A stretch of 64,000 bases of DNA from Branchiostoma floridae (lineage: Eukaryota; Chordata; Leptocardii; Amphioxiformes; Branchiostomatidae), in assembly GCF_000003815.2 (NCBI RefSeq), contig NC_049984.1:5917258-5981257 (forward strand). Reading direction: 5' to 3'. The position numbers were made by a program, and so were the translations under genes. The notes beneath the pieces were generated by a model that made no database searches, was not told the origin of the DNA, and saw only the letters and a program-made list of their open reading frames with translations. Positions 7,233 to 64,000 of the stretch are shown here, piece by piece. Every line of letters begins with the position of its first letter. Positions within the stretch are counted from its first letter, which is position 1.

Positions 7233-10200
7233 ATGCAGATTCGTCTGCAAGGCGGACTGGATGGGAGTGAGGCCATGTGGATTCGACTACTCGTATATGA
7301 ATGGAATACTCTGAGATCTCAGAACTGATGCGGGGATGCGGGGAAAATAAAAGTTCGGAAAATACGCTGCCGTCATCGTGAAATGAAACTTTTCACTCAG
7401 GGATAGATACCGTAGAGCCAACAAACGTGTATTTGTACACCTCATGAATCTTTAACATGAATATAATCAGTCATGGAAAAGATTCTGATTTAAAAGAAAA
7501 CAAAACTTCACTTCCACTTTAATTTTCGCTTCAAAAATACATTGCTTTATCAATTAATTCGAAATTCGTTGAATTGCTGAGATAATTGGTGAACTCAGTG
7601 GAAAATTGGAAAAGAAGTGTTCCATATAGTATAGGGTTTCATTAGTGATTGGAATCATGGGTAGAGAGCCAAGCCGTCTCCTCAAAGTGCCCTCGATTAT
7701 TACACATTCCTCGGAAGGGTTGGAAACAGCGCGGGGGGTCACTGGGTCACGCAGGTGATTGACATCTCCGGTCATGCGTGAGGACTCGGCAATAACCGCC
7801 TAAGTGTCGTGGGAACCACACGCCTTACTTAGGGGACCACCTGGTACGAAATTAGATAGGCGTACTATCCAAGCAGATGTAATAATCGTACTCTTTTTTA
7901 GCATTTTACGTCTGTTTTTGCAACATTTGTAGTAGATGTGTACTGTTTCCTTGTACTGTGTGTTTCAAGAATTACCCTTCTTATAGGAAAGAGTCCAATG
8001 TGGTAATCTCCAAGCAGATTCACCGGTTTTAAGACTGTATTCATGTGCCAAACAATATGCATCGCTCATGAATCATATGGGAAAAGGGTCAAAGGAGCCC
8101 ACATAAGGTCTAGGGCAAAGTAGAATAAACGGAAAGAGGAATACTCTAAACTTGTTCTCAACCTAGAAAAGGAAAACAAACATAAGCAAATCAAACTAGA
8201 TAAACAAAAAAGAAGAGAGACGGGGACATCTTCGATCAACATGACATTTTTGCAGAAACTGAAAACTTAAATCTGTTAAGACAATGGATACTGTACATGT
8301 CTTGCATTTACGGTAGATATGCTCAATGGATATTAGTTTGGTACGCTTGATATATTGCTGAATATAAGTTTTATCAGTCGTCGTGTAGAAACGAGAAGGT
8401 GTATTGACACAATAAAAAGAACAGCGACTTCCGTACGGTCAACCACGAATAAAAAATAAATGTTAGAAGCAACTTACTAAGTAATAAAGTCTGACATGAG
8501 CGAATCCGTGATATCCTATAACAGCCCGGTACGGTGGTAGGGCTAGCTGATCATGGGTTTCAGGAGGTTTTCCAATAGCAAGGTAATTTCAGATATTGTT
8601 TTGGAGGCCGCAAGGAGAGAGGCGTGTAAATCCGCCTCCCAATAACCTGCCCCACACTATGGATTGGATCCCGTACGGACTCAAAAAGACATATACTCGT
8701 ACATGACCTTTACTTTAAAGTTCTCTCTTTAAAACTCAAGCAAATGGCGTTAGTTTGACATGTTTTGGGCCTTTCCATTAAGCAGCTTTCCTGACTCATT
8801 GTTTTCCCGAGATACCTGACCCCGAAATACCGGAAAGGTTCTCTGATGTTTACAGAAACGACTTTGTTCATTTCTTTGCACTAGCCTGAGCTCCACCCCG
8901 GTCTCCATCAGACCAACTAGGGTGTCTATAAGGGAAAATGAATTGCCAGGAGATTTTGGTCACCGCAAAGGTTTATTTGCCCCCAGCTGCTTGTTTGTAA
9001 AACTTTGGTATGTAACGTTACAACTTTGGTAAGTCCACTAATAGCTATGTAATTGGTGCCCCGTAGCGTACTAATCCTCTCTATTGCTATGTGAGTACAA
9101 GAAAAATGATAAGCTTCCGGCCAACTGACTGGCAAATTAGTCACCCAAATGTTACCGGATTCTGTCATCATTAAAGCAGTAAAGTTTTTCTTATTTTATC
9201 CACCCTCGATTGAATCTTTTGGCCCATTATTCAGTCATTTTTTTGGGGGACCGGATTCTGTCATCTTTAACCTAATAGGAAGGCCTGGTGGGGGTTATAA
9301 ACATCATACTCCGGTTTACTTCTCTGATTACTTCTCCAATTTTAAGTCTCTACAAGACTTCACTGGTTACAGGGGGAATATTCGCCATCGAAGGGCGTCA
9401 TGTAATAGCCTCTCCTTCGATTGAATCTCCTGGACAAATATTCACTATGTTTTGCCGAATTCCATAGCCCGTTTTGCCGAATTCCATAGCCCGTTGTGCC
9501 GAATTCCATAGCCCTCTATAGCTATACAGCATGGTAGAGGCCATATTCAGTTCAGGTCAGTTCAATTCATTGGCTTCGTTCTTTGAGAGGTGGGATCACA
9601 GCCACCACGAGGCTATATCCATCCTACTCTATCTTGATTTCACTCCTCTGATTAAATTTCTACAGACTATATATATGGCATTAGAAACGATCTGAGGAAC
9701 GAGCCGAGTACCAGGAAAATTTCGCACAAAACGGAAAAGAAATGTTAGCAACAGTAGTAAGTGGGTATAAACGTGTTCTAGTTGTTCAGTTTGTCCATTA
9801 GTCTACCACGCCCCATGGATCGCGCTGAAAGGGGTTGCCTGGTGGATGTCACACACTTTTACACATGTAGGGCAAGGTGAGCACGTGTTCTGACTTCACC
9901 TTTACACGGAGATTACACTGGTCGCATATTTCCGCTGCAGCTCGATCATCTGTCTCACACTGGTCAGCACTGATGAATGTATTGACCTCCACAGTAGACT
10001 GGATCATTTGTTTGGCTTCTCATGTTTATTCTGTCTAATAATGTATCAATTTGCTACTTGGCTCCAGACGGATGAAAAACGTCTTAATCTCATATATCGT
10101 TCAAGACGGTGAATTGGTGCAGGTGAAATAGAATGCTGTCAGACGCTCGGTAACAATCAGTACCAAACGGATACAGTAAAAAAACAGGACAAGAATAAGC

Positions 10201-10991: not shown

Positions 10992-12571
10992 CTACTCATC
11001 TAACCTACTGTACGTGTAAGGCTGATTGCCACCGTTGATTCCGACAGAAACTGTCGAAGTTGCTTGGTTATACACAACACTTTGGCCTGAAGGAGACTTC
11101 TTTTTTGGTCCCCGTAATATCCAGAAGTATATTACTGAAAATATAAAGGCACAAACAAAGAGAGTTCCGGCTACTGCTGCAAGAAGAGGCCTGACGAAAA
11201 TAGGCAGTGAGGACGGACCAGGAGCATTGTTTTCTGCCCTTTCTGGATGGAGGAGGGAAACAGTTCGTGAAGTCAATGGGCTACTTAGATGAGAGTTAAT
11301 TGTTGTTTGTTCGCAGATGGAATCTCCAAGACCTACGTCCTGTAGCAAATTTTTACCTTGAAGATTACTCGGTCCATCGCATGTGATCTGCCACTCAAAT
11401 GCGAAGGCACCTTTCATTCTTTGCCTAAAGGAAACCATCCCACAGTCACACTGCCAGGGGTTATTGCCAATACTTATGTTTGTGATGGACGCCAGTATGT
11501 CATATGCCGTAGCGTTTTCATTTCATTGTCCTCAATCTGAAGATCTGTCAGCGAAGAGATATCAATATTTGATAAGGCCTCGGCGGGGAAGACGTTGATC
11601 TTGTTGTGGGACAGTAAGAGTGCCTGGAGCCGTGGCAGATTCACAAACGCGTCAGCGGCAATGCTGCTGATGTTGTTGTACTCCAGGTCTAGGTGCTGAA
11701 GTTTCGGCGTGCCGCTGAAGGCGCCTGCCTCGATACTACTGATGTCGTTCCTGTGCAGGTCCAGCCACTCCAGGCTATCCAGGCCCTCAAAGGCGTCAGC
11801 TGGGAGGCTGGTCAGCTGATTGTTGTCAAGATGCAGGGACGTCACGTTATGGAGGCCCTGAAATACGTTAGCTGGGAGACTGGGCAACTTGTTCTGGCCA
11901 AGCCACAGTTCCCGCAAGCTCCCGAGTCCTACAAATATGTCAGATGGGAGACTGGCTAGCTCATTTTGTCCGAGCCACAATTCCTGAAGCTTACCAAGTC
12001 CCGCAAATATGTCAGCTGGGAGACTTCGCAGTTCGTTCTGGTACATGTCTAAAATCGCGAGGTTACCAAGTCCATTGAATATATCAGCCGAAAGACTGGT
12101 CAATTCGTTCTGGTAAAGATCCAGGCGCTGCAGATGACCGAGTCCGTTGAATATGTCGTTTGGTAGAGCGGACAATTTGTTGTGGTAAAGCTCCAAGCGC
12201 TGAAGATGACCAAGTCCTGCAAACGCATCGGCTGGGAGACTGGCAAGTTGGTTCTGGTAAAGATACAATTCAGTTAAACTAGTCAAGTTACTGAATGTCT
12301 TACTCTCGATTAGAGATATCTTGTTATTCCCAAGATGTAGGTATGTTACATATCGGTACTTTAAGAAGTCAGACTGGCGTAATGTGGTGATGGCGTTGTC
12401 GCGCAGGTCCAGACGGACGATGCTGGCAGGTAGGTCCTGAGGAACACTGGTGAGGCCTGACCCGCGGCAGTCACAGGTTAGAGAACAGCTGCTGCTGCAG
12501 GCTGTGGTCGGTCCGCTTTCCTTCAGGATGACCAACAGGAGAAGGAGCACCCATTTCACTTTGTTGGACAT
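10992..12571 (-). CDS. Leucine-rich-repeat type-I membrane protein, one-base frameshift
   Basis: Single coding exon for a secreted-pathway receptor or adhesion-like protein. From the N terminus it has a signal peptide (residues 1-25, WVLLLLLVIL core), a cysteine-rich LRRNT cap (CSSSCSLTCDC), about 12 LRRs of 24 residues (LxxLxLxxNxLxxLPxxxFxGL), an LRRCT cap (NPWQCDCGM...ITCDGP...ICEQ), a Ser/Thr-rich stalk and one membrane helix (LLAAVAGTLFVCAFIFSVIYFWIL). The tail is about 40 residues with several tyrosines (VVYNQA, YTYSRLDE). Two frames are needed: the LRR frame stops at 11474 and the cap-to-tail frame continues from about 11530. Total length 1580 nt is one base short of 527 codons, consistent with one lost base in an A-run. 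Domain order resembles amphioxus LRR receptors and VLR-like proteins; ligand and function are unknown. Confidence 0.85.
11515..11530 (-). other. Frameshift site in the LRR gene
   Basis: On the minus strand the sequence GACAATGAAATGAAAACG lies where the LRR frame (ending LRHMTYWRPSQT then stop) must switch to the frame reading NATAYDILASITNISIGNNP and the LRRCT cap. One missing A in the first A-run would explain the shift. It could be an assembly or homopolymer error, a polymorphism, or an inactivating mutation; codon quality on both sides argues for recent origin. Confidence 0.75.
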
Positions 12572-13960
12572 TGTGCCTATAACAAAACAGAAATGAGAAT
12601 CTGAAGGTTGAAAGACAACATCATCTGAGCGTTATCTCTGTATATCTCTACATGTGCAGGAAGTGCTTATATTTTGGCATATATCAGGTAAAAGACGCAT
12701 ACATGTACTAGAAAAAAATAGTTCACCTCAATTCACAATTCAAAAAGTTTCTTTTGCTCGTAAAGGTTGCTTTAGTCTTGCCTATATAGTGACTACACAC
12801 TATTGTGGTAGTAGCAGCCCATGGATTAAGGGGTTTAGTGGTCATTCTGTTAAGTAATGTAAAATTAGAGTGGTGGATGCAGCTCGGTGTTTGCAGAAAG
12901 TTCAACCCCTTTACTTAGGTTGATCACTCCGAATTCAGGCCTAGCCACTGACGTCATCCCTTCGGGCTTTCGACTAACGTTAGATATGCATTATTATATA
13001 TTCATATTCATTATAGATTTACATTGACTGGAGTTTCTTGGTGTATTAGATCTTACGGTACGTTTTTCCTTCTATATAGTGTCGTTTCGGGGGATATTTT
13101 TCTTGCAATACGGTGACAATGGAAAAGTCTCTTGAAAGTGTAGCTATATGTTTCAACAAAGGGCTCAAAACTATGCCGTGTCCCATTTCTAGATGAGTGT
13201 CAGACCGGTCCATCCGCTTGTCACCGTGTTTGTTTGTGTAAGGCGCCTCTTACTGGGTGCACGCAAGTAACCGTACCCAATGACGTAGTCTTGATTTGTA
13301 CTGGTTAGGAAACGTTAAGCATGGTCGTTGACCTTTTTTCTGCACAGATTTCACTATATTTTCAAAATTTTGTTGTTGCTATCATTTGCTATCTGTAGAA
13401 TATCTATGTTATACTTATTGTGTCAGTAAAGCTGACTTGAATATATCCCAAAACGTTAGAAATAAACAATCAATGAATGAACTTTATTGGATGGCAATTA
13501 TGAATGAGCAGGCAGTTTATTGAAGTATCAATTTGCTTACAACTTCTTGTCATTGCTATCGTTATTGGATGGGCCGACTACATTCTTTTCTCAGTCAGGG
13601 TTTAAAACTCTGTTACATTGCTGACACCTTGTGACATGGTGACAGTTCCAATTCCCATTTCCTCGACGCCATTTTTAAATGACATTCGAACCAAACATTT
13701 AAGCTGACAACTGTTCCTACACCAGAGTTTCCTTTACCTGCAACGAATCGTAGAGACATTACGTTTTATGTAGGATAATTGAAGACTTACCTTGGTGTAA
13801 GCGCCTGATTGCCCGGAATCTATAGAGATCTTCTCAGTTCACCTGAAGTGTCGGGAGCCTGTCTGGTGCAGTGTTCTTCACCACTGTGACGTGTCTGATC
13901 TGATCATGGTTGAACCTGTGATTATCGGGTCCGATCAAGGCGTTGGCTTCAGTTCAACAT
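12572..13960 (-). other. Probable 5' UTR intron and non-coding first exon of the LRR gene
   Basis: Five bases upstream of the ATG there is a good acceptor (tatag then GCACAATG; ag at 12577-12578). A strong donor, gtaagt, is found on the minus strand at 13785-13790, so a non-coding exon probably ends at 13791 and starts somewhere to its right, perhaps near 13960. This would give an intron of about 1.2 kb. The transcription start is not visible. Confidence 0.5.
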
Positions 13961-20777: not shown

Positions 20778-20955
20778 ATGAGGAGGGTTGGCTGGACGTG
20801 CGGCAAGGTCCTCGCCTTGGCCTGGATCCTGCTCTATATGGGGAAGGCCGGCTCGGACAGTCCAAAGAACAGCACCAGCCGCAGCCGGAGCCGCAGGTAC
20901 TGGATGCTCCGTCCTCCAGAGGGATACCAATACACCGTCAAGCCGCCGGTGCCAG
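20778..20955 (+). CDS. Receptor exon 1: signal peptide and N-terminal segment
   Basis: Starts [10 protein letters not shown] and has a hydrophobic core [12 protein letters not shown], then a basic SRSRSRR stretch and [19 protein letters not shown]. The ATG at 20778 is the first in frame after the TATA-like box. Ends at CCAG before a gttagt donor, leaving one base of the next codon. Intron 1 is 13.7 kb. Confidence 0.85.
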
Positions 20956-32900: not shown

Positions 32901-35900
32901 ATGTGAAGAATATCCGTGCAGTCAACGAGGTGTATGATTTAATCATACCGTGCCAGTCTTCTTGACATCAAACCAAAATTCCCGGAACAGCAAATCCTCC
33001 GTGGGATGGATGTTTAGATGAAGTGGTATAAACCTGCCCTGTAACGTCAACGTTAGCGTCGCGCATAAGCTGCTCTCTCGTTTCTTTTCATACCCCGTGG
33101 AAATGAAATAATAAGTGGATGCCTCGTTGATCCGATTGATCAGCAGACTGCTTTTGTTGTGATAAAATTATCCTTTCATGTCGCTACGGGTTGTAACGTA
33201 GTTAGCAATCTGATAATACAGGCGCCAATGATACCGAGACTCCCGCATAATGCATCAGTTGGGAGCAGGCTGTAAGCCGGCGGGAATAGACAGGGTGCTT
33301 TCAAGCATGCACAGTGTTAGAGCCAGAGTCTTCCGTGGCACCAAGTCAAGGCTAACTCTGCTACTCGCGGCGGTGACATAAAAGGCATTCTTATTGTCAC
33401 CTTGAGAGAGACGTAGGTAGTGAAGCAGAACGTACAGGACTTACGCAAACGACTAACGCAAAGACAGTCATCCATAGCTGCAAACTGACTCGTATGGAAA
33501 CTACTGTCACTGCCACGTGTGTTATATCGAATCGTGCTTTTTAATCGAATAAGTATTATATAAACGATCCAAATCCAATACGACAAGATTGGATACAGTA
33601 ATAAAACACATTAGTCCGATCTTAACGAGTCTACTCTGTCCATGTACCATAATACAGGTCAATACGTTTTGTATTGATTAGAGGTACTTACTACGGGCAA
33701 CCGTGTGTGTAACATTTCAGGTAACCGGGTGGATAACCATGGCAGGATATAAGGCCTTGCCCTGTGATGGGAATCATTGATACCCTGTACACACCAAGGA
33801 GCATAGATCGCAGGAGTGTAATCAGGCTATTTGTAAACCGACCTGTCATTAAAAAGATGCGAACTCCGCCTTTTGATCGATCACCCAGCCCTAACTTATT
33901 CTCCCGTGGACAAATTCGTGATGCGGTAGGACACTTCCGTCAATTCAAGGTTCCTCTGGCGTGCAGGGAACATTCGTTTGCCGTCAAAAGCATCCAGTGG
34001 TCGATATTTTCCTTGATGTTAGCACAGGGTCGCATGTCACGTCAGTTTTAAGTTCTAGAGATGTACATGTAGTAGTTGTTGACCTTTCCTACAGCCGTGG
34101 TAAAGTGCGCGCCAACCATTCTTGATCAAAAAGGCTTTTGAGTTAATGGGCGAGAAAGGTGGTGGACTTGACATAAATATATTCAGTTGCACGTCCGCGT
34201 GATGTAAGCCTTGAAAACCTTTCTATGTACGCGTTAGTTACACCAAGTCTGGCTCATTGCTCATCGATTGGTCTGAAGCGTTTGGGTTGAAAGAGTGAGT
34301 TGGAGCGAAAACAAAGTTCAGCCTCCATTATTCCTCATCGTAAATTGTGTTATTCGGGTCCTTTTCAACTGAACATGTTACTTTTTTAATCAGTTTCTTT
34401 TTGGTGCAGTGGGGCAACCTTTTCGCATCAGGAGTCAAGGGGAGAAAGTTTCCTGCTTGTTCATTGTGATGTGAAACATGCCCGGCGAGTCAGCTAACCA
34501 ACAACGCATGGGTGGAAGGGAGTGGTTGTTCGTGGTGCATTTTCGCTGTGTATTTGACAAGTAGCGTCTTTAGTGTAAGGCTTGTACAGTCTTCTTATTC
34601 TTTCGAAATGATGTCTCTTCTTTTCAGATCGCTGGTTGAACGTCACCGTGGCAGCACATCTACAAGGCTTCGGCTCGGTGTCTGAGGAAACAATGGTACA
34701 GTCCGATTTACAACAAGTAAATAAACTTATCCAATATGGTGCTTATATTAACTTGTACAATATTGTGCTCACTTTCCCAACTGCCATTCAAAGGAACCGT
34801 CATTCAAGTTTTATCGTACCCTAAGAACAACATAAGGACTCCACTTGCCTTGGTGAACTCCCTAATAGTATCACAATTTACATATCTATTCATGGCATTA
34901 CCTTCTCCTAGCGCCAAGTTCTTTAAGGAGTATGAGAAAAAGATATTCAATTTCATTTGGAATGGGCGCCCAGAAAAGATTAAACGCAAGGTTATATATA
35001 ACACCTATGACTGTGGTGGTCTGAAATTAATACACTTACCCACTTTTGATCTCACTCGTAAGGCATCGTGGATACCTAGACTATGGCAAGCAAAAACACC
35101 TTTAAGTAAATACTTGACTGATTTCCCAGATCCGGTATGTAAACTTTACCCTTTCTTGCAATTATCTAAATATCATATAGACTGTATTTTTACTAAGTTT
35201 TCTCGGTCTGTTAGTCCTTTCTTCATCAATGCCCTTAAAGCATGGCTTTCCTTCCAATTTAAGCCACCTGAAACACACCAGGACATACAATCACAGCTTT
35301 TATGGCTCAACTCAAATATTACTATAGACAGCAAGCCTATTCACTTTAGAAAGCAAGCTACTGGTTAAATATTATTTATAAGTGACCTTTTAGATACAAA
35401 TGGAAAATTTTTGTCATATAAGGAATTATCGCTGAAATTTGGGAAAACTCTTCGAATGATGGAATATAATCAAATAATCTCCGCTATCCCAAGCACCTGG
35501 AAAAGACATCTTAAGGATAAACCACTTACTATAGGACCTAATGCACCCTTCATATCAAACTATTCCTGGTTGGGGGCACGTAAGATAAATAAAGATATAT
35601 ACATGACAACTCTTTTAACAAATAACGTAGTCCAAACCCCAGTTAAAATCCAAACATATTGGGAAGAAATACTTGACATAATAATACCATGGAAACAAGT
35701 TTTTAGACTGGTATACAAGACTACAATATGTCCGAGACTAAGATTTTTCCAATTTAAGATGTTACATAAATTTCTACCTACCAGAAAAATGTTATATATT
35801 TGGAAACTCTCGGACAGCCCTATTTGCATACACTGTGGAAATGAGCAAGAAGATACACTGCATCTATTTTGGGAATGTCCAAGAGTTTCCCAATTTTGGA

Positions 35901-38900
35901 GAGATGTTAAGAAATGGCACGAACGAGTATCGAGTGAACCATTACACATAGATTTAGCAAGTGTAATTTTGGGTGATCTAACAGTAAATTCCCCTAGGCT
36001 AAACAATACACTAATATTAATGGCAAAATTTTTTATTTACAAACAGCAAGAAAAACACCTATCATTAAACCATTTTATCTCTTATATTAAGACTTCTTAC
36101 AAATTGGAATTTATAATAGCTTCCAGAAAGAACAAATTGGCAGTTCACTACAGTAAATGGGGAGAAATACTTCACATCATTTCTTAAACCCCTCTATTTT
36201 CTTTTTGTCTTTTGTTACTCTTGTGGTTTAGCATTATTCAATTATTTCCACTAGTATTTGAAGCGAAATGTTGTATTGATGGTTTCTTATGTGTCTGTAC
36301 TTTTATTTGAGATTATTCTTGTTTACAATTTACCATTAATTTACACTGATGTTACTTTTCTTATGTAAACGATACTACCTTATACTGCTGTATTAGTTTA
36401 TTTGGTTGGTATTATTTTCTTCCCGCTGTAGTATTGTTATCTATTTTTGGATCCGTGGTTTATGTTTATGTTTTGTCTCAGTTATTGTCTCCATCTCTAT
36501 TGTCATTATGTATTCCTCTGTTATTTCTGTTTATTTGAAATGCAATAAATATAAAAAAAAAGGACTCCGTCATACTAATTGCAGCCCCTTGAGCAACCAA
36601 AAGTGGATCTGTTCGACCTTCTGTCGTTATGGGTGGAATATCATCCGTCATGGTAAGCTATAATTTGGAAATAGCAAAAGATATACTTTTTCAATGAAAT
36701 TTATTAGAACTGATAATGAGGTGTTTGGTCACTTAATAGTCGCCACCTTAAGAGGGAGTGGGGATACACAGGGTTGCTTCGATTTTTATTTCAGTCTTCA
36801 TTGTTGTTCTCATGTTTTTCGTATTGATAACGTCTCCGGAGATCCTATTACGTTGCTACTAACCATGTCTTATAGCAGTTCCCAGCTTATGCCAGGGTTA
36901 CATATCCAAACCCGGACCGAACGAAATCGTATGATAGAAAACACAGCAAAGGGCAGGAAAGCCAGCCAAATTTATTCATAAGCATAAATTTGTGTATACT
37001 TCTTGAAATTTACTTACTTACTTGAAATACCCTTCATTACTTCGAATTCATTTCCAAAAATAGCCCTGTCGGGTTCGGAAACGCGAAGATAGTGAATGGT
37101 TGCAAACTCCGCGCGGAGGAGCTCCAAAGAGCCCCAGACAATGAGAGTTAGTGTCACACAGGGTGACCTTATCCATGTGAAAATCGACCTGTAATTCGAG
37201 AGATGGTTGGACGATTCAAGCCGTCTCATTACTCGTCTTGCTGAACAGATACCTTTTTGACAGGGGCTAAATTGGATACTAAGGAAATTGATGTGCCCTG
37301 GTTTCACGTTTTCTCTTCAAAGGTTAGGTTTGAAGGTATAATCTATATATCGAATCCGTGTAACTAAACTACTGTTCAGGTTACGGATGGGTAGAACCTT
37401 CGGACCTCACCCTTGGGCCGTGTCCTGACACAACATTTCTAGTTTGATCTTGCGAAATGTTGGAAACATTGAGATCTTGAAATGTAAAAATCAATTGTAA
37501 GCATGTTGCTTCATTGTATACATGTAGTGCTTTACGAAGTAGTATGGTTTCCCAAGTTTGTTGTCGCTGAGTTACGTACGTACTTCTGTTGGTCAAAATT
37601 TCACCCATTCCTTGTTTTGTGTCCAATCCTATTGTTCTTTGTCATGACTATCTCCGAGCTTGTAAGATAGACATTGGTCCATGTGCAATATAGTAGATCG
37701 TTGAGACTTGTTTGAATCGTTGTAACTCTGTGTCGTGTACACCAAGAAACTTAGATGAATACGTCATGAGCCAAAAAGCAGTTACTCAAGCAACTGGATA
37801 TGATTTTGGAAACGGTCAGACGTTTCAACTGGAATCCACCAGTTTTCTTCAGTGACACTGAAGTGATCTGGAAGAAACAGGTCTTTTATACTCTAACTAT
37901 GAATGAAGACAATTTCAGATGTCCAATAGGAAACAGATGTAGAATACGACATGAATCTCCTTGGCCTGTGAATGTTCCCAGGACTTCCAGGCGACCATCC
38001 AGATCGTCCGTGAGTGGCGCGACCCCCGGCTGCTGCCGCTCCCAGAAGGCAGGCCGTTCCTCCCGGTGGACCCCCAGGCCAGGCTGTGGACTCCTCACAT
38101 CGACTTCTCCAACCTCAAGGAGGTCAAGGTTGCCAGCGTGCCGCACAAGGAGTTCCAGAAGGAACCCAACATGTGGGTCACCGCGGACGGCAACGTCAAC
38201 GAGTTGTCACGGTTTGTCCTGCAATGCAAACTTAAACTAAGATTCCATTTTTACAAGACAGAGAGCTAGCAAGGGGCTGCCCTAAGGCAACCGAGGTGCT
38301 AATTGACAATCTACGGGATCACTGGGAGACCTTGTAGATCATTGAGCGACCAATAAAAAACCACTGTGGAGTCTGTCAGATGTAAAGACAGTAAACAGTT
38401 TCTACTCCTCTACTCTACTCCTGTTGTTTATAGCTTGCCTGGGTACCTAATCGTTAATTTTATCAGGCAATGTGGAAACAAAGTTTAACATAAAAAAATT
38501 ATGTACTGCAAACAATTGATCACAGGTGAATGATGTTTATCTTCGTACTTTTTTGCCACAGGTATGAAATAAAGGTGACGTGCAGCATGAGTCTACAGAA
38601 CTATCCCCTGGATAACCAACTCTGCAGCATCAGGATGGACGGATGTGAGTACAACAAGTTGCATCTAACGTTCTGTACAACGAGCAAACCAATCAACACC
38701 ACAAACAATTGAATTGACATGAAAAGTAAGCAACAGCTACTCAAGCAACTACAAAAATTCGGATGCTGTCTGAAACGTCTGTTTCCATATTCTATCAGGT
38801 GTCTGAGCCGTCGTTACCTTGCGTATCATATTACCTGCATGTTCAGACTTCATCGACGTTGACAGTTGACATTTTAGCATTTGGCATAGCAAAATAAGGT

Positions 38901-41900
38901 GCATCTCTAGAAGTTGGAACGAAAACGTACGTCTACTTAATGCACTGTAACCGGATATAGCTAGAGAAAGGAAGGTACCCTATCTGTCTTGTCCATATCT
39001 TGCTAGGCTGCCTCAATGTCCAACGGTCATTTGCAAACGGAAATTGTAGCCTTGATATTTGTTAAGTAATGGAAGCCAACCTGTGGAGTAAAATTGCGTA
39101 AAGCCCTCACCAATGGTCCATGATAGGCTATTTTGGCTGCATAATTCTCTTTCAAACCACTCAAAATCCCTAAAACCATAACTCTTTTCTTGACCGATGA
39201 TTCTATCTACTTGAAGTACATCATGATACGCTTTCGCCTCCTGTCAAAACCCAAATTAAAGTACATCACGATACGCTTTTACCTCCTGTCAACATCCAAA
39301 TGCCAAGGCTACTTAAGACATACGTTAACAATATAAACTGGTGATCCGTTTTCGGGCGTAATCAGTCCCAGCTCCCAGGACATTACATGGCTTCATTCTT
39401 TACTCAATGTTCTGTGACGACCTTCTCCTGTTCGCAGAATTTGATCACCAACAATTCAGCCGAACCTACGCAAAATCAATATGTCTCTTCAACTTAAGGC
39501 CATCAAACATCTTAATGCACCATGGCCTTTCTTATAATGGGTCGTTCATTTTTGATGACATAATCCTCCCCAAGCAGTGCCCTAACCTTTACAGTTTTCG
39601 TCACGCACACTGGGGCTGCAGATGAGCAGAATATGAACCGATTTGAAGATGAGTCAGATTTCCCTGTAGAGTAACTCTTCTGGGCCTGCTGTCATGACTT
39701 CGTAGATCGAACTATGGTGACATATGGCGGTTATTGTACATCATTGCCAGATGGTTATTTGCAACAAGCTGTTCTTTCAGGCGCATATCCAATGTTGGAG
39801 ATTGTCACCATTAAGTACGTCTAATTGTTCAGCCGGCTAGCCAGTCCTTATACGCCTATCCTGTATGACTTTAACAATAATAGTGTTTGCAAAAAATCTC
39901 ATACATACGAAAGTAAGGCTATTGTCATTCTTGTAGACATTGACACATTAATCAAGGACCTTGCATATATATTGATCAACTAACACGAGTTCATGATGTA
40001 CCCATTGTGGTGGAAATTATTTTCTTTATCCTGCCTCATCATGCCCTATACTCATTGTAGGTGCCATTGAAGCGATAATTGAGTTCATTCCAAATGCCCC
40101 GATGCATGTTGATTGCCTACGAAGAACATGACTCTTTCTTCCAAATAGATCAGTATAGAAAAAGATTTAAAAGAGGTTAGAAGAAAAGGTTGTTTGCATC
40201 AGCCACGACAATCGAGCCAATTTCCATACGTTGATGGTGTCATGAACAGATAATTTGTCACCAGAAGAGTCAAGCCATCAATCAAGCTCATCAGAAAGTT
40301 AAGCCAGAAATCTAAGCACTCTCTATTTTCGAAGCAGCACTATATAGCAGCAATGGCAGTGTCGCAATTACCTTTCTCTACCCCTTTTTTTTAATATTTG
40401 TGGTGCAACTTTCATCCCTCGAGGAGTAAAACGTCTAAGAAGTAAGAAGTCTACCTAAGAGAGCTCAGCATGTCTGAAGAAATCGAGTTGTAGAAAGTTA
40501 ATTACCTTTAAATATGCAGTAAAAGTCATTATCTTCTCTCCACAGTTGAAGGCGTCCTCCTGGCCTGGGGATACCCATTCATATGGGGTGGTCACGGAAC
40601 AGAGCCGTTACTGACTGACGCCACAGCCATCCACTCTCAATTCAGGCTGAGGGAAATAGAGATAAAGGCTTATGTTAACTCGTTCGACGTCAGAGTGGAA
40701 GGTAAATATTTCAGATTGTACATTTTTAAAAGTCATGGCGTGGCGTTATGGGCAAAGACAATTAATTGAATGCCGAGTACCATTCGTGATGAGTTATGAT
40801 GTCAAGACCTGTGTGCATCACTGAGGACATCACTGAAATACGATGTGCAGAGAGCAGGCAAGGATAATGGGTGGAAATGTCAGAACACACAAAGGCACGT
40901 TATACCCACTCGGGGGAACCTATGTGCGCGTAACGTTATATTGACCACAGTCTGGTATAGTGGACAGGACGAACCTTAATGGGTATCAGTACTTCTACTG
41001 GAGACTGCGGAGGCTTTATACTGCATAGTGAGAGCGATCGATATGTGCTCTGGAGACATCCAAAGGACCCCGACGAGCTGATGCTTGAAGTTTTAGATGG
41101 CAAGACAAACAGTCAGACCTGCGCTAGTGATCACCTCTGACACCTCTGCATAACGATGGCCTTATCACTTTTGACCCAAGCATTAATCATCTTGTTTGTA
41201 ATTGCCACCTATCTATTGTGGCCACTTCCCTCAAGTCCTTTGAGTGGTCACTTTAGACAGTTGTTGAAACACAATGTGTGGCAACATATGGTAATTTATG
41301 GATGGTTGATGCATCGGCAATAAAATGTATAAAGAAACATGACGCCACTGACAATTCGCATATAGATAAAGCACCATATCCTTTCACAGTAAAATTAAAA
41401 GTCAATGTCAAGGTGCTTCTATTTATTTTCTCCGCTTACTTATCCAGCTGCTTGATGTCAAAGTCTAGCCTCTTCAATTTTGTTGAGGCGTGTCCTTTCA
41501 AAGGTCATGTGCAAGCTTGGTTGATTATCAAATGGCAATCTTTGCAAAAGCAATCTCTCCTATGTTACCAGCAATTAGTCCACGGGCAAGAATTTGCAAT
41601 AAACTTATTATCAATTATTGATTATCCTCTAATTTAGTTTCCATCAGATTGCCTTTGATGCCGTAGTTATTTCCCCCTGCAGGGAAAGGCTGTAAGTACT
41701 CCAGTTTCGTCTGTGACTACCGCGCGGCTGACGCGTGTCTGGTGGATAACTCCCGGTGTGCGGACACCCTCAGCTCTCCGGAGTGTGATTACTGCACGTC
41801 CTTCCCGGGAACATGTGACAAACACACACAGACGTGCAACCTGCTGGCGGAAGGTATATGTAAATGTATTTAAGTTCGCGGGGATTTAATTTCGCGGTAG

Positions 41901-44504
41901 CGGGACCATGAAAAATGACTTTTCGCGGTGGTTCTAAGTTCGCGGTATCACAATGCACTGTAGTCTCTTACTTCCATGGAAAAATGTTCGTGGTGGTTTT
42001 AAGTTCGCGGTGAAGCGGCAACCGCGAAAACTGCGAAGATTGAACCACCACGAAAGTTTCTGCATTTAAATTCTGTGTAACTCAAAACTAGAATCAGTCA
42101 TGCCTTCAAGTTCCAGAGTTACCAACCTAGGATTGATGTCTTCAAAAATTCTTATTTTCCCAGAACTATGATCTTAAAGTGGAATATGTTATCACGAAGC
42201 ACAGTAGGAGAATCTTCCCTGGATAGTTTTAAAGAACACTTGCAGATAGATGTGCAAAAGCTAGGTGTGACAGGCCAAGGGCGGTTATACCGGCTATATA
42301 GAGACATTTACAAACAAATGTAGGGCGTACACTGATCAATATCTTTGTCTTCGCTCAATGTTCATCTTGCCATTGCTGCATCATTTCAAAGGTACAATTG
42401 TGAGGAAACGCCGTCCTGAAGTTATAAAAATGGGAAATCGATGAATGGAAACTTGCCGTGCAAGTAGAGCTATTTCAACTTATGCCAGATAGCTAGAACA
42501 GCGTATTTTACCAACAACCAAGTTCATTTTACTCATCTGAACTATAGAAACCTGGCATGACTTTGACCTTAGATCAAACGCTTTATCAGGAATCTTTGTA
42601 CATACGTAAAAGCCTATCAAAGTAGTGTGTTTGTGCACCAGAAAATTGTTATCTGAGCTCTATTCTATGGAAAAGGCTCTCAGCAACACACTTACATATT
42701 TTAATGCCAGGGACGATAAGCAATAATTCAAATGTTCGAAGCGGAGCATATTCAAGAAATTGCGGTGACGATAATGCCAACCATGTTAAAAGAATATGAT
42801 TATCCAAGACTCAAAGGTCACCCATCCGGTAGACACGCTCAGATTGTCTGCCAAAACGTACTTTGCCGAACAGTAATCAGACTTGCAAAGGCGCATGAGT
42901 TCACCTCTAGTGTAAGCACTAATGTACTTGTTGGTTGCATGCCAAATCTCAGCCGACAACTTGCATTGTGAATCATACACAGGTGTACATACGCCTATTC
43001 ATATGCGAACAAAATAAATCGTTAAGTTTCTCTACTTGTATTGCCATTGGTATAAAGTGATATTTTATCACTGAATAGTGCTATGAGCACAGGATTAAAA
43101 GCAGGTGAGGTGTTAGGAGGTAATATGTCCCATTTGAAGGAAGGAAAACAATGCCCATCACATGCTTCCTGTTTGTTGCATCGCATTCCTTTGAATTGTT
43201 TAAGACTTGAACAGCATAACAGACCCATAGCCACCTGTTACTTAGCAACCATTTCGTCTTAATATGTGACTTGCTTTGGATGCTCTTCGACTGTGAACAA
43301 AGGTGTGCATGCCAAATACCCACCATCATAGTTCCTCGAAGTAGGTTGGGTCGATGTGATATCTTGTGCTCCCCACGGGAAAGTCTGACACAGGAAAGAG
43401 TGAGCTCGAATGTTCAAAGGAGGGGTTCTTCCTCATAGTGAACAACATCATGAGATAATGATATCCTATTAATTGCGCTAGTTTAACTCCCATCTTTCCT
43501 CCTCCCCACAGCTACCTCCAAGACGTTCACGTCTGTGGAGATCCAGCTTCACCTGTCAAGACGTCTGGCCTACCATCTCATGCAGATGTACATCCCGTCC
43601 ACCTCCATCGTCATCATGTCCTGGATCTCCTTCTGGTTCTCCATAGACACCGTGCCGGCCCGGGTTTGTCTGGGCGTCACCACCGTTCTGACCATGACGG
43701 CGCAGAGCTCCCGTACGGCGCCCATGCCCGAAGTGTCTTACGTCCGCGCCGTGGACGTCTGGGTCGTCGTCTGTCAACTCTTCGTCATCTCGGCGCTGCT
43801 GGAGTACGCTGCCGTCGACTTCATACGCAGAAGGGAGGAACATAGACCGCAGGTATCAAAGGTTTATTGTATTGTCTCCCAGTGCTTGACACTTGCTATC
43901 CATCCCTGTCATATATTCCCGAGTTGGACAATCACACTAGCAAAGGTGTCATTGTACAAGTTATGGGCTCAAATACACATTATGGAAGACCCCCAGAGAG
44001 AAAGAGTGGAATTTGATATGTCATAACACTTTCAGAAAGTATTCCAAACACCAGTTACGCAAGCAACTGGATATTATTTTGCTTGAGTAACTGCTTTTGG
44101 CGTATCTTTTTACCTGGATGTCCATAACCATAACCTTCAGCGAAGTACAGAGTATTGATGTGAACTAACTTATCTTTGTATTGCCACATTTTGTTGAACC
44201 GAAATCGCAGAACATCTATTGATTGGAAAAACGTCCAGACCAGATTGGCTACTGGTAGCCATACGCTGTATTTCATAAGCTTACTTTTCTCACTTAGACA
44301 CTGAATCACAACAACGGAACGCTCCAGGTTGTGTGTACGGACCCCAAGGTGCCTGACCCCGCCTCCAGCTGCAGTACGTCCCCACGCCGATCGCGCAGTC
44401 CCGCCGACAAAGCCAAGAGAATCGACTACATCTGCCGAGTGGCCTTCCCCACGCTCTTCATCCTCTTCAACGTCATCTACTGGGCGTTCTACTTGTGTTA
44501 TTGA
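20778..44504 (+). CDS. Glycine-receptor-like Cys-loop anion channel subunit with cysteine-rich loop-C insert (8 exons, complete)
   Basis: Subunit of a pentameric ligand-gated chloride channel of the plasma membrane. Exons 20778-20955, 34628-34695, 37982-38211, 38562-38644, 40546-40701, 41683-41853, 43512-43852 and 44298-44504 have GT/AG borders and join in frame to 1434 nt (477 residues plus TGA). Layout: signal peptide about 1-25; ligand-binding domain 60-305 with WRDPRL, LWTP and MWVTADGNV; Cys-loop C166-C180 with 13 residues between; an 8-cysteine insert 239-295 inside loop C; TM1 318-338 (MQMYIPS); TM2 344-365 (PAR then [12 protein letters not shown]); TM3 374-395 (LLEYAAVDF); a short loop; TM4 456-476. 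The PAR motif at the inner pore mouth is the anion-selectivity signature. Closest known relatives are glycine receptors, but the ligand cannot be told because the loop-C cysteine pair and much of loop B differ. Confidence 0.93.
21260..22080. repeat. Tandem copies of a dispersed repeat (CAGTCAAACCTGTACTAGTG family)
   Basis: Between 21880 and 22010 the motif CAGTCAAA-CTGTACTAGTG then ACCACCTCTGCA occurs in tandem about 60 bp apart. A diverged copy lies at 21262-21310 and another at about 41108-41160. It lies in receptor introns 1 and 5 and is probably a non-coding transposon family. Confidence 0.6.
22270..22335 (-). mobile_element. Decayed LYRLYR-type LINE tail
   Basis: The complement contains GGACGGTTATACCGGCTATT, the same coding tail as at 4330-4410 and 42180-42323. 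It lies in intron 1 of the receptor gene. Confidence 0.4.
22807..23060 (+). mobile_element. tRNA-derived SINE, copy 1
   Basis: The head has an A-box-like GTAGTTCAGTGGTTAGCG and a B-box-like GATTTCAAATCCCGGC. The body carries TTCATTGCGCTTGTC, AAGAGCTA and TCCAGGTACAATGAACCTGT and ends near GCCACGACCAATGGAAGAC. All these blocks recur in order in the copy at 46453-46724. Confidence 0.7.
23330..23830. repeat. Dispersed repeat A, first locus (one long copy plus part of a second)
   Basis: The stretch 23405-23700 is homologous to 28110-28400, sharing GACATTxTACGA, GAAAACGGGGATCAATTAC, GGGGATGCAG and CACTGTTCTCG in order. The leading part (ACTACATTAGCAGCTTAATG, GAGAAGTCG) returns at about 23764-23810, so a second partial unit follows. 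No protein is encoded. Confidence 0.65.
24080..24215. repeat. Two-copy tandem repeat of about 80 bp
   Basis: TTTACTCTGC, CCGCACATAAA and TAGxxCCGxxAATG/GCG occur twice in order, about 80 bp apart. Confidence 0.5.
28110..28400. repeat. Dispersed repeat A, second locus
   Basis: Diverged copy of the 23405-23700 segment in the same orientation within intron 1. It shares the GGGGATCAATTACxATG and GGGGATGCAGxTGAACA blocks. Confidence 0.6.
34628..34695 (+). CDS. Receptor exon 2
   Basis: Acceptor ttttcag at 34621-34627; donor gtacag after 34695. Encodes [20 protein letters not shown] ending ETM, matching the first beta strands of glycine-receptor domains (V..I..FGS..E..M). NVT is a possible N-glycosylation site. 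Joins exon 1 in phase 1 and exon 3 in phase 0. Confidence 0.88.
34834..36568 (+). mobile_element. 5'-truncated L1-clade LINE with target-site duplication
   Basis: The element body (34843-36559) encodes the C-terminal part of a LINE ORF2. After the thumb region ([13 protein letters not shown] and IFNFIWNG) comes a C-terminal [19 protein letters not shown] zinc-knuckle-like motif followed by FW, typical of the L1/Tx1 clade. The frame is open to TTCTTAA at about 36187 except for one in-frame TAA at 35366-35368. A short A-rich tail ends at 36559. The body is flanked by AAGGACTCC at 34834-34842 and 36560-36568. It inserted in the sense orientation in receptor intron 2, 140 bp after exon 2, and looks fairly young. 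Confidence 0.9.
37768..37875. repeat. Dispersed repeat B (AGTTACTCAAGCAACTGGAT)
   Basis: Contains AAGCAGTTACTCAAGCAACT then GGATATGATTTTGG and CGGTCAGACGTTTCAACTGG. Related pieces are found at 38736-38800 and, as an inverted pair, at 44052-44103. It lies directly before receptor exon 3 but outside its acceptor. Confidence 0.6.
37982..38211 (+). CDS. Receptor exon 3: core of the ligand-binding domain
   Basis: Begins [17 protein letters not shown] after a cccag acceptor. [21 protein letters not shown] and [14 protein letters not shown] are conserved positions of Cys-loop subunits. The exon is strikingly GC-rich compared with its introns. Ends in phase 2 at a gtttgt donor. Confidence 0.93.
38562..38644 (+). 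CDS. Receptor exon 4: Cys-loop
   Basis: Encodes [20 protein letters not shown] then LCSIRMDG. The two cysteines are separated by 13 residues, and the NYPLDNQ centre matches the FPMDxQ type Cys-loop signature. Borders are cacag and gtgagt. Ends in phase 1. Confidence 0.93.
38736..38800. repeat. Dispersed repeat B, second copy
   Basis: Short copy with CAGCTACTCAAGCAACT and CTGTCTGAAACGTCTG; sits in intron 4. Confidence 0.5.
38801..40545. other. Receptor intron 4
   Basis: No exon is supported. It contains one near-exact duplicated 20-mer-scale block (AGTACATCA-GATACGCTTT at about 39217 and 39259), otherwise AT-rich intronic sequence. Confidence 0.5.
40546..40701 (+). CDS. Receptor exon 5: loop B to strand before loop C
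   Basis: Encodes [18 protein letters not shown], then a linker and [20 protein letters not shown] with RVE. The segment aligns with the QF.L.E......Y stretch before the loop-C cysteines of glycine receptors, but a valine follows the aromatic residue where the first cysteine is expected. Ends at GAAG before gtaaat, phase 1. Confidence 0.85.
41683..41853 (+). CDS. Receptor exon 6: cysteine-rich 57-residue module in loop C
   Basis: A 171-nt exon entered and left in phase 1, so it can be skipped or gained without frame change. It encodes residues 239-295 with eight cysteines spaced C-6-C-7-C-6-C-8-C-2-C-6-C-6-C. It contains no hydrophobic span. It sits exactly where loop C caps the agonist site. 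Typical glycine receptors have here only a short hairpin with two cysteines. I do not recognise the fold; EGF-like, laminin-like or a clade-specific knot are possible. Confidence 0.9.
41857..42066. mobile_element. MITE with TTCGCGG motifs abutting a splice donor
   Basis: Imperfect terminal inverted repeats (TGTAAATGTATTTAAGTTCG at the left, CGAAAGTTTCTGCATTTAAA at the right). Several internal copies of TTCGCGGTGG or AAGTTCGCGG are present. The left end begins only about 3 bases after the end of exon 6 of the receptor gene, so the donor sequence gtatat partly overlaps the element border. There is no coding capacity. Confidence 0.65.
42180..42323 (+). mobile_element. C-terminal remnant of a CR1/L2-type LINE polyprotein
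   Basis: Open frame of 47 residues beginning [20 protein letters not shown] and ending [14 protein letters not shown] then TAG. WN.L......SL..FK..L is the usual C-terminal end of CR1-type reverse transcriptase proteins. It lies in receptor intron 6 in the sense orientation; the rest of the element is absent. Confidence 0.65.
42324..43511. other. Rest of receptor intron 6
   Basis: No coding exon or clear repeat is visible. Its 3' end has a good pyrimidine-rich acceptor (cctcctccccacag) before exon 7. Confidence 0.5.
43512..43852 (+). CDS. Receptor exon 7: pre-TM1 to end of TM3
   Basis: Encodes [20 protein letters not shown] then [16 protein letters not shown] (TM1), [20 protein letters not shown] (TM2) and [20 protein letters not shown] (TM3). 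The match to glycine-receptor pore helices is very strong. Position 2' of TM2 is cysteine (C348). The linker after TM2 ([12 protein letters not shown]) is one residue shorter than the usual SSGSRASLPKVSY form. Confidence 0.95.
44052..44103. repeat. Dispersed repeat B as an inverted pair
   Basis: CAGTTACGCAAGCAACTGGA is followed by the complementary TTGCTTGAGTAACTGCTTTT, so the intron-7 RNA could form a hairpin between receptor exons 7 and 8. Confidence 0.6.
44298..44504 (+). CDS. Receptor exon 8: short cytoplasmic loop and TM4
   Basis: Phase 0 after a cacttag acceptor. A basic Ser/Arg-rich loop ([16 protein letters not shown]) leads to TM4 ([20 protein letters not shown]) and TGA at 44502-44504. 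The TM3-TM4 loop is much shorter than in vertebrate alpha subunits. A possible AATAAA polyadenylation signal lies at 45664-45669. Confidence 0.93.
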   Translation, partial: TLNHNNGTLQVVCTDPKVPDPASSCSTSPRRSRSPADKAKRIDYICRVAFPTLFILFNVIYWAFYLCY

Positions 44505-63250: not shown

Positions 63251-63436
63251 CTACGCTGACAGATAGACGGTCCAATACGTGATGTTGAATATGACGAACA
63301 ATGAAGGAAACACCATCCTGCAGACGCGGTCGATGTTCTGGGCAGCGGTGGGCACGAAGTTGCAGCTGTCGCATTTGCCACTGATTTCTATTGGCTGGTG
63401 CTCTGGTGACGCGCCGTTCTCGGTCGGCTTATCCTC
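63251..63436 (-). CDS. Second receptor, TM4 exon
   Basis: Acceptor ccatttacag before GAGGATAAG. Encodes EDKPTENGASPEHQPIEISG, then KCDSCNF and NIDRVCRMVFPSLFVIFNIT then YWTVYLSA and TAG. The C-R-x-x-F-P-x-L-F-x-x-F-N-x-x-Y-W core is shared with gene 1 ([17 protein letters not shown]) and with glycine receptors. Confidence 0.9.
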   Translation of the reverse strand, partial: EDKPTENGASPEHQPIEISGKCDSCNFVPTAAQNIDRVCRMVFPSLFVIFNITYWTVYLSA

Positions 63437-64000
63437 CTGTAAATGGAAGGGTATCAAGTACGAAAAATGGAATGAGAAGATCATATTGTTATTGATAAAG
63501 TCTAACAGTTACTGTTTTGTTTAAATTAGTAGATGTAGCATCAGTCCCGAACTGAGGCACTGAACTGATGGGAAATCAAAAGTATTTATGACGTGGTCCA
63601 TGTAGCGTACAAGTGCTAGTGGGTTGTAACAGTATTGTTCTTCTGTAACATTGTCCGACGTTAAAGAGATGAAGATATGTATGATATAGCCAGTATAACA
63701 GCCCTGATAACAAATCAGTGCCTCATTCATTGATATTGAGCTTTGACTTGACTTGAGCTAAATAGTGCGCAAATAGTAACGTTTGCAGGTATACATTTAG
63801 AGAGTCATAGAAGCCCACGTGCGTCAACATAGACCTAGCGTGGAGTCCAGGCTTGGAACTAAACCTAACAAATTTGGACTCCAGGCTAGGACAATACAGG
63901 CCGAGACAGTAAAGCCACTAACCTTTCCCCAACAGCTCGCACGGCTTTGTGACGTTCCCACAGATTCCAGTGCAGTACAGGCAGTTATCGTGATAGCGGA
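63251..64000 (-). CDS. Second glycine-receptor-like subunit, 3' part (partial, TM1-TM3 exon not found)
   Basis: Two minus-strand exons of a paralogue of the 20778-44504 gene. The last exon (63251-63436) encodes a short loop and TM4 with a TAG stop. The exon at the right edge (63923-64000) ends the cysteine-rich loop-C module. Both have the same phases as in gene 1 (module leaves in phase 1, TM4 exon enters in phase 0). The TM1-TM3 exon, which should start with two bases completing the split codon and end in phase 0, is not visible in the 487 bp between them, in any frame. The gene may be damaged, misassembled or make a poreless product. It faces gene 1 tail-to-tail, consistent with an inverted duplication. 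Confidence 0.75.
63923..64000 (-). CDS. Second receptor, end of the cysteine-rich loop-C exon (cut by window edge)
   Basis: The minus strand reads RYHDNCLYCTGICGNVTKPC then ELLGK and one base, before a gttagt donor (63917-63922). It aligns with the end of gene 1 exon 6 (CDYCTS...C...CNLLAE): CxYCT, two further cysteines and the xLL ending with the same phase-1 donor. NVT is a potential N-glycosylation site absent from gene 1. Confidence 0.8.

Follow-up and report, generated by a model that had tools for sequence, protein, structure and literature searches.

The window analyzed here, a stretch of 64,000 nucleotides from the amphioxus Branchiostoma floridae (contig C6 of the 513-Mb assembly, positions 5917258 to 5981257), holds a gene for a glycine-receptor-like subunit of the Cys-loop superfamily in which a separate exon inserts a domain with eight cysteines into loop C. 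In receptors of this kind, loop C folds shut over the agonist. Eight exons with seven GT-AG introns between them join without a stop codon to 477 residues, and the pore region is intact, which confirms the gene model of an earlier note on this DNA. Splice ends, in this gene as in its paralogues, were read from the DNA letters. The exons are as follows.

20778..20955 (+): exon 1, predicted signal peptide and N-terminus, with a hydrophobic start and 78% identity to residues 7-64 of the lancelet protein P0002
34628..34695 (+): exon 2, beginning of the ligand-binding domain, from the gene model and the comparison with P0002
37982..38211 (+): exon 3, ligand-binding domain including loop D, with a valine at the position of the glycine-receptor arginine
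38562..38644 (+): exon 4, Cys-loop, from the gene model and the comparison with P0002
40546..40701 (+): exon 5, phase 1-1, ligand-binding domain through the rising arm of loop C
41683..41853 (+): exon 6, 171 nt, phase 1-1, the loop C insert of 57 residues with its eight cysteines
43512..43852 (+): exon 7, falling arm of loop C, M1, M2 (with Pro-Ala-Arg) and M3
44298..44504 (+): exon 8, M3-M4 loop, M4 and stop

Pfam families PF02931 (ligand-binding, E 1.6e-18) and PF02932 (membrane, E 5.3e-24) were matched on 350 residues of the window gene, and the M4 helix is encoded by the last exon. The Cys-loop pair is formed by C166 and C180, 13 residues apart, and Pro-Ala-Arg precedes M2 at residues 344-346. 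With both domains, the Cys-loop and Pro-Ala-Arg, the product has the features of an anion-type Cys-loop (pentameric ligand-gated) subunit, and the solved chains closest to it by sequence are glycine receptors. In the alignment of the lancelet proteins described below, both Cys-loop cysteines are found in 12 of 14 rows, the remaining two being truncated or faulty models, and Pro-Ala-Arg is kept in all 13 rows with letters at that position. The retention of this motif predicts an anion-selective pore for the insert-bearing subunits. Intron 2 of the gene contains a LINE-like retroelement with two adjoining open frames (34721-36187, +), which starts 26 bases past exon 2; the second frame matches the reverse transcriptase zinc-binding domain of Pfam, and the first has no Pfam match.

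The domain encoded by exon 6 has the cysteine spacing C-6-C-7-C-6-C-8-C-2-C-6-C-6-C. Of seven candidates in a search with residues 222-300, which comprise the insert and its flanks, three proteins matched, and each is a Branchiostoma record: one from B. lanceolatum, one from B. belcheri and one labelled B. floridae x B. belcheri. The B. lanceolatum protein P0002 is 93% identical to the window protein and continues unbroken across both exon 6 junctions, showing that the separate phase 1-1 exon described in the earlier note is real. An insert without a Pfam family is what one might expect if the exon were spurious or part of another gene. Three other lancelet protein records have this domain in the equivalent position, however, and such an exon is found at 14 further loci of the window's genome, so that explanation is refuted by the conserved exon and retains next to no probability; conservation in other lancelets' proteins and in paralogues thus bears out the note's opinion that a spurious exon was unlikely. 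In the B. belcheri protein P0001, the first residues of the domain occur in five tandem copies, the last of which continues into the full domain; this looks like either a faulty model or a local or true expansion in the B. belcheri genome.

When the query was residues 60-240, of which only a small part overlaps the insert, the three Branchiostoma proteins above came back together with two paralogues, and the insert is present in all five. A profile search yielded 147 proteins, the best 120 of which were listed; its scoring covered the 7993 candidates sharing most words. In the combined set of 121 proteins (15 from lancelets and 106 others), the eight-cysteine pattern was present in all 15 lancelet proteins found and in none of the 106 others, a group made up almost entirely of glycine receptors from fish and including one GABA-receptor-like protein from a barnacle. 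Loop C is of ordinary length in 104 of these 106 proteins; in the remaining two, the fish models P0059 and P0118, it is unusual but does not contain the pattern.

We then read 24 receptor stretches of the genome, picked, not at random, from a search with the insert plus M1-M3 that gave 132 exon-level matches (150 of 166 candidates scored); many matches lie outside the 24. An eight-cysteine exon was present in 15 of them (the window gene, L009, L010, L011, L012, L015, L016, L017, L025, L026, L027, L028, L029, L031 and L032), spread over contigs C4, C5, C6, C14 and C17. One more, L018 on contig C9, has a loop-C exon with six cysteines (7249-7400, +), as though one disulfide had been lost. In the other eight (L013, L014, L022, L023, L024, L030, L033 and L034) no eight-cysteine exon was found; the upstream exons of L013, L022, L023, L024, L033 and L034 were only partly covered, and an exon further up is possible there. 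Each gene was counted once: L001 and L004 are the window gene; L002, L005, L007, L003, L006 and L008 are shorter cuts of L011, L010, L012, L013, L014 and L015, respectively; L021 overlaps L017, L019 overlaps L014 and L020 adjoins L013. A low-complexity pattern match in L026 was removed from the count. In L033, a receptor gene on C9, three identical translations running into M1 lie within 900 bases (2667, 3054 and 3428, +), and these are possibly mutually exclusive exons or an assembly repeat.

All 15 eight-cysteine exons can be read as phase 1-1. The first cysteine codon lies 8 nt from the acceptor in 12 loci and 2 nt from it in three, and an alternative donor is possible at some loci, e.g., L025 and L028. 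This symmetry in every locus is what an optional cassette would need, as skipping of exon 6 would yield a loop C of ordinary length and thus channels with and without the domain. Removal of exon 6 from the window gene product indeed leaves the frame open, and loop C of the insect channels GRD and pHCl is varied by splicing according to the accessible text of PMC2064938. Nevertheless, the insert is present in each of the five proteins found with the ligand-binding domain only, and a skipped form would still be devoid of the loop D arginine and of the second loop-C cysteine (see below). The alternative skipping put forward in the earlier note thus gains no support here, the insert being present in 5/5 proteins matched outside it and in 15/15 lancelet proteins, although short isoforms may sit within the 90% clusters, and we regard an optional cassette as improbable.

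The genes in which no eight-cysteine exon was found inform on its origin. In L013, L014, L022, L023, L024 and L030, the exon for the falling arm of loop C starts in phase 1, and in L014 the preceding donor is phase 1 as well. As these six paralogues share a phase-1 start at the same part of loop C, the most likely event, as judged from the splice phases, is the insertion of the exon into a phase-1 intron that loop C already had. The exon shuffling invoked in the earlier note gains support from this arrangement. The exon border is offset by about three codons between the insert-bearing and insert-free groups, so the length of the linker changed too. A cysteine is kept at the second loop-C position in L013, L022 and L030.

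A tree built without the insert grouped 11 of the 15 insert-bearing lancelet proteins with 100/100 support, against a contrast of six vertebrate proteins and one barnacle protein. In the simplest history, one exon would have been placed into the old phase-1 intron of loop C, and gene duplication would then have spread it. We consider such a single gain likely but not proven, because the tree is unrooted, has long branches (P0014 and P0121) and is made of insert-bearing proteins only on the lancelet side.

Two further features lie at the right edge of the window.

63257..63436 (-): last exon (M4) of a neighbouring paralogue, locus L009, a gene that also has a whole eight-cysteine exon and whose other exons are past the window edge
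63921..64000 (-): partial duplicate of the L009 eight-cysteine exon, with a phase-1 donor and closely similar to the whole exon, in the intron before the last exon of L009

Because L009 holds a whole exon and a partial copy in a later intron, the eight-cysteine exon seems to duplicate on its own as well. A right-edge neighbour devoid of M1-M3 exons had been considered and was dropped, since those exons lie outside the window. Elsewhere in the window, a gene for a leucine-rich-repeat (LRR) protein is found at 10992-12631 (-), and a frame overlapping it has a hydrophobic stretch and a weak LRR C-terminal match under the Pfam cut-off.

Within the domain, the positions that vary little or not at all are the cysteines and one glycine, and most inserts have the signature E-C-x2-C-x3-(F/Y)-x-G-x-C. 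In alignment A5, six of the eight cysteine columns are invariant, another almost so, and the remaining one is displaced in the P0012-like rows. A chance origin of the cysteine pattern can be excluded from these comparisons, because the eight cysteines are retained among paralogues whose inserts share just 28-46% identity, and block-shuffled sequence totalling 5.1 Mb contained a looser version of the pattern a single time. Between the orthologues P0002 and P0003, the insert (50/57 identical residues) and the ligand-binding domain (156/179) change at a similar rate. The insert changes faster between the paralogues P0004-P0010 (23-26/57, versus 81-87/171-177 for the ligand-binding domain); the corresponding values for P0012-P0014 are 16-17/57 and 45-57/135-169.

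The profile search of the 57 residues against protein families that the earlier note had proposed gave no family match: among 12 inserts scanned with Pfam, the best E value was 0.1, and no family was matched by more than two inserts. Toxin_7 was rejected as the identity of the insert, its E values of 2.5-2.6 in two of the 12 inserts being far short of the cut-off. The cysteine spacing resembles that of the PSI domain, yet the same scan gave no PSI match. A search of solved chains with the insert returned a single chain at chance level (E 0.23), and, as expected, the insert together with its 3′ flank had no match in a search of phages.

We examined the ligand pocket by placing glycine-receptor positions on alignment A4 by motif, using glycine-receptor numbering (S129, E157, Y202, T204, F207 and the C198-C209 pair). 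The loop D arginine is present in all 14 comparison proteins versus none of the 13 insert-bearing lancelet rows with a letter there. In the genome, where pattern matches beyond receptor exons were disregarded, it is found in none of the nine readable eight-cysteine loci (V in the window gene, A in L009, S in L010, I in L012, G in L017, N in L026, T in L027 and L028, and K in L029), and six-cysteine L018 has T. The two canonical loci that could be read at that position, L014 and L030, both have the arginine. The S129 serine is missing from all 14 lancelet rows, one of which is a truncated model, and so is the loop C tyrosine Y202, at a place where the alignment beside the insert is doubtful. 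Glutamate 157 is replaced by aspartate in nine rows and by asparagine or methionine in four, with a gap in one, and the F207 position is aromatic in all 14.

The second loop-C cysteine (C209 position) is a serine in the window gene and S, A, T or N throughout the 14 lancelet rows. Since this position is never a cysteine, the aligned sequences place the eight-cysteine domain in a loop C without the usual cysteine pair. The earlier note, which had the domain replace the two-cysteine hairpin, was thus correct as to its location in loop C, and the detail that differs is the absence of the pair itself. Neither of the two glycine-receptor hallmarks considered, the loop D arginine and the second loop-C disulfide (C198-C209), is found in the insert-bearing rows. 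In the accessible part of a cnidarian study, the loop D arginine forms a salt bridge with the GABA carboxylate (PMC13335744). Homomers of insert-bearing subunits are unlikely to have the usual site for glycine, GABA or glutamate, because contact residues such as this arginine are lost.

An AlphaFold2 model of P0002 built with 28 sequences had a mean pLDDT of 63.8, with blocks of the insert ranging from 56 to 83. Both arms of loop C remain strands in this model, and the insert between them is predicted to form a strand, two helices, a strand and a short helical turn. The insert modelled alone was poor (pLDDT 48.7). A fold search with the whole model had glycine receptors and a glutamate-gated channel among the matches listed and was uninformative on the insert.

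Taken together, the data indicate an anion-type Cys-loop subunit of a lancelet family with an eight-cysteine loop C exon, whose domain probably folds into a disulfide-held lid across the subunit interface, one that would replace the amino-acid pocket with a pocket for another ligand. We assign this reading a probability of about 0.5. A disulfide-stapled domain at the tip of loop C would be located at the subunit interface and would move with loop C, providing an enlarged lid and a new recognition surface. Together with the lid, a rebuilt pocket that has lost its amino-acid contacts would change the ligand. We infer the disulfide pairing, the fold, the movement with loop C and the ligand change itself. 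A changed ligand is judged the most likely purpose because the amino-acid contacts are gone; the earlier note's suggestion that the insert could change ligand choice is made more likely by the loss of the binding residues.

Several observations weigh against the lid. The faster divergence of the insert relative to the ligand-binding domain between paralogues fits partner binding equally well. The whole model is only moderate and that of the insert alone poor, so that the lid stays a prediction. Y202 and T204, which adjoin the insert, are aligned with doubt, the genome controls for loop D consist of just two canonical loci, and L029 has a lysine at the position of the loop D arginine. Subunits devoid of that arginine can also join heteromers in which a neighbour supplies it. 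Finally, the comparison set is nearly all fish, with tunicates, hemichordates and echinoderms outside it.

The main rival explanation is that the subunit binds no agonist and is a structural partner in mixed receptors, its loop C domain fixing assembly or binding an extracellular anchor. The loss of binding residues on both faces and a constant cysteine frame around an otherwise variable domain are consistent with such a role, which we deem possible but doubtful. The pore motif and the aromatic residue at the F207 position are nevertheless retained, and the many paralogues fit tuned receptors better than one structural partner. As for the disulfide-held lid, a more far-reaching version can be offered tentatively. 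A single shuffled exon may have made loop C a knotted mini-domain in a large class of lancelet chloride channels, and the agonist cap would then itself serve as a rapidly evolving recognition module, built into the receptor, for peptides, proteins or ligands from the environment rather than for amino-acid transmitters.

In Cys-loop receptors, the binding of an agonist is coupled to channel opening by the movement of loop C. An expanded natural family with loop C rebuilt on a disulfide-rich domain, and with sister genes showing the site free of the exon, provides a test of how much of loop C gating needs. It also allows one to test how a channel family shifts its ligand, and it would bear on the nature of inhibitory signalling in a basal chordate.

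No eight-cysteine loop-C domain was found among the papers listed in literature searches, as judged by title and abstract start, a coverage that most subscription journals fall outside, and the accessible portions of PMC4795631 (where the term loop C is absent), PMC8699752 and PMC13335744 mention no such domain. Loop-C insertions as such are already known. As described in the accessible text of PMC2064938, the insect channels GRD and pHCl carry them, some made by splicing: Drosophila GRD has an extra stretch of 75 residues in loop C, and splice variants occur for GRD and pHCl in Tribolium. The statement of the earlier note that no described receptor has such a module therefore holds for the cysteine module, new as far as searched, but not for loop-C insertions in general.

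Comparison with known systems places the lancelet subunits among several partial likenesses. Like GRD and pHCl, they are Cys-loop subunits with added sequence in loop C, and unlike these, compared by description only, they have an eight-cysteine module, which the accessible text does not describe in the insect channels (PMC2064938). Lynx1 and the snake alpha-neurotoxins likewise bring a small disulfide-rich module to or near loop C of nicotinic receptors, as far as the available parts of PMC7821949 and PMC9352773 describe them. They are separate proteins acting in trans, whereas the lancelet module is part of loop C (PMC7821949, PMC9352773); the likeness is one of arrangement only, with no sequence match found or expected. 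The closest solved relatives by sequence, which were also among the matches listed by fold, are the glycine receptors, with which the lancelet subunits share the Cys-loop, the Pro-Ala-Arg pore motif and M1-M3. They differ from them by the 57-residue insert, present here only, and by the loss of the loop D arginine and the second loop-C cysteine that fish alpha subunits have.
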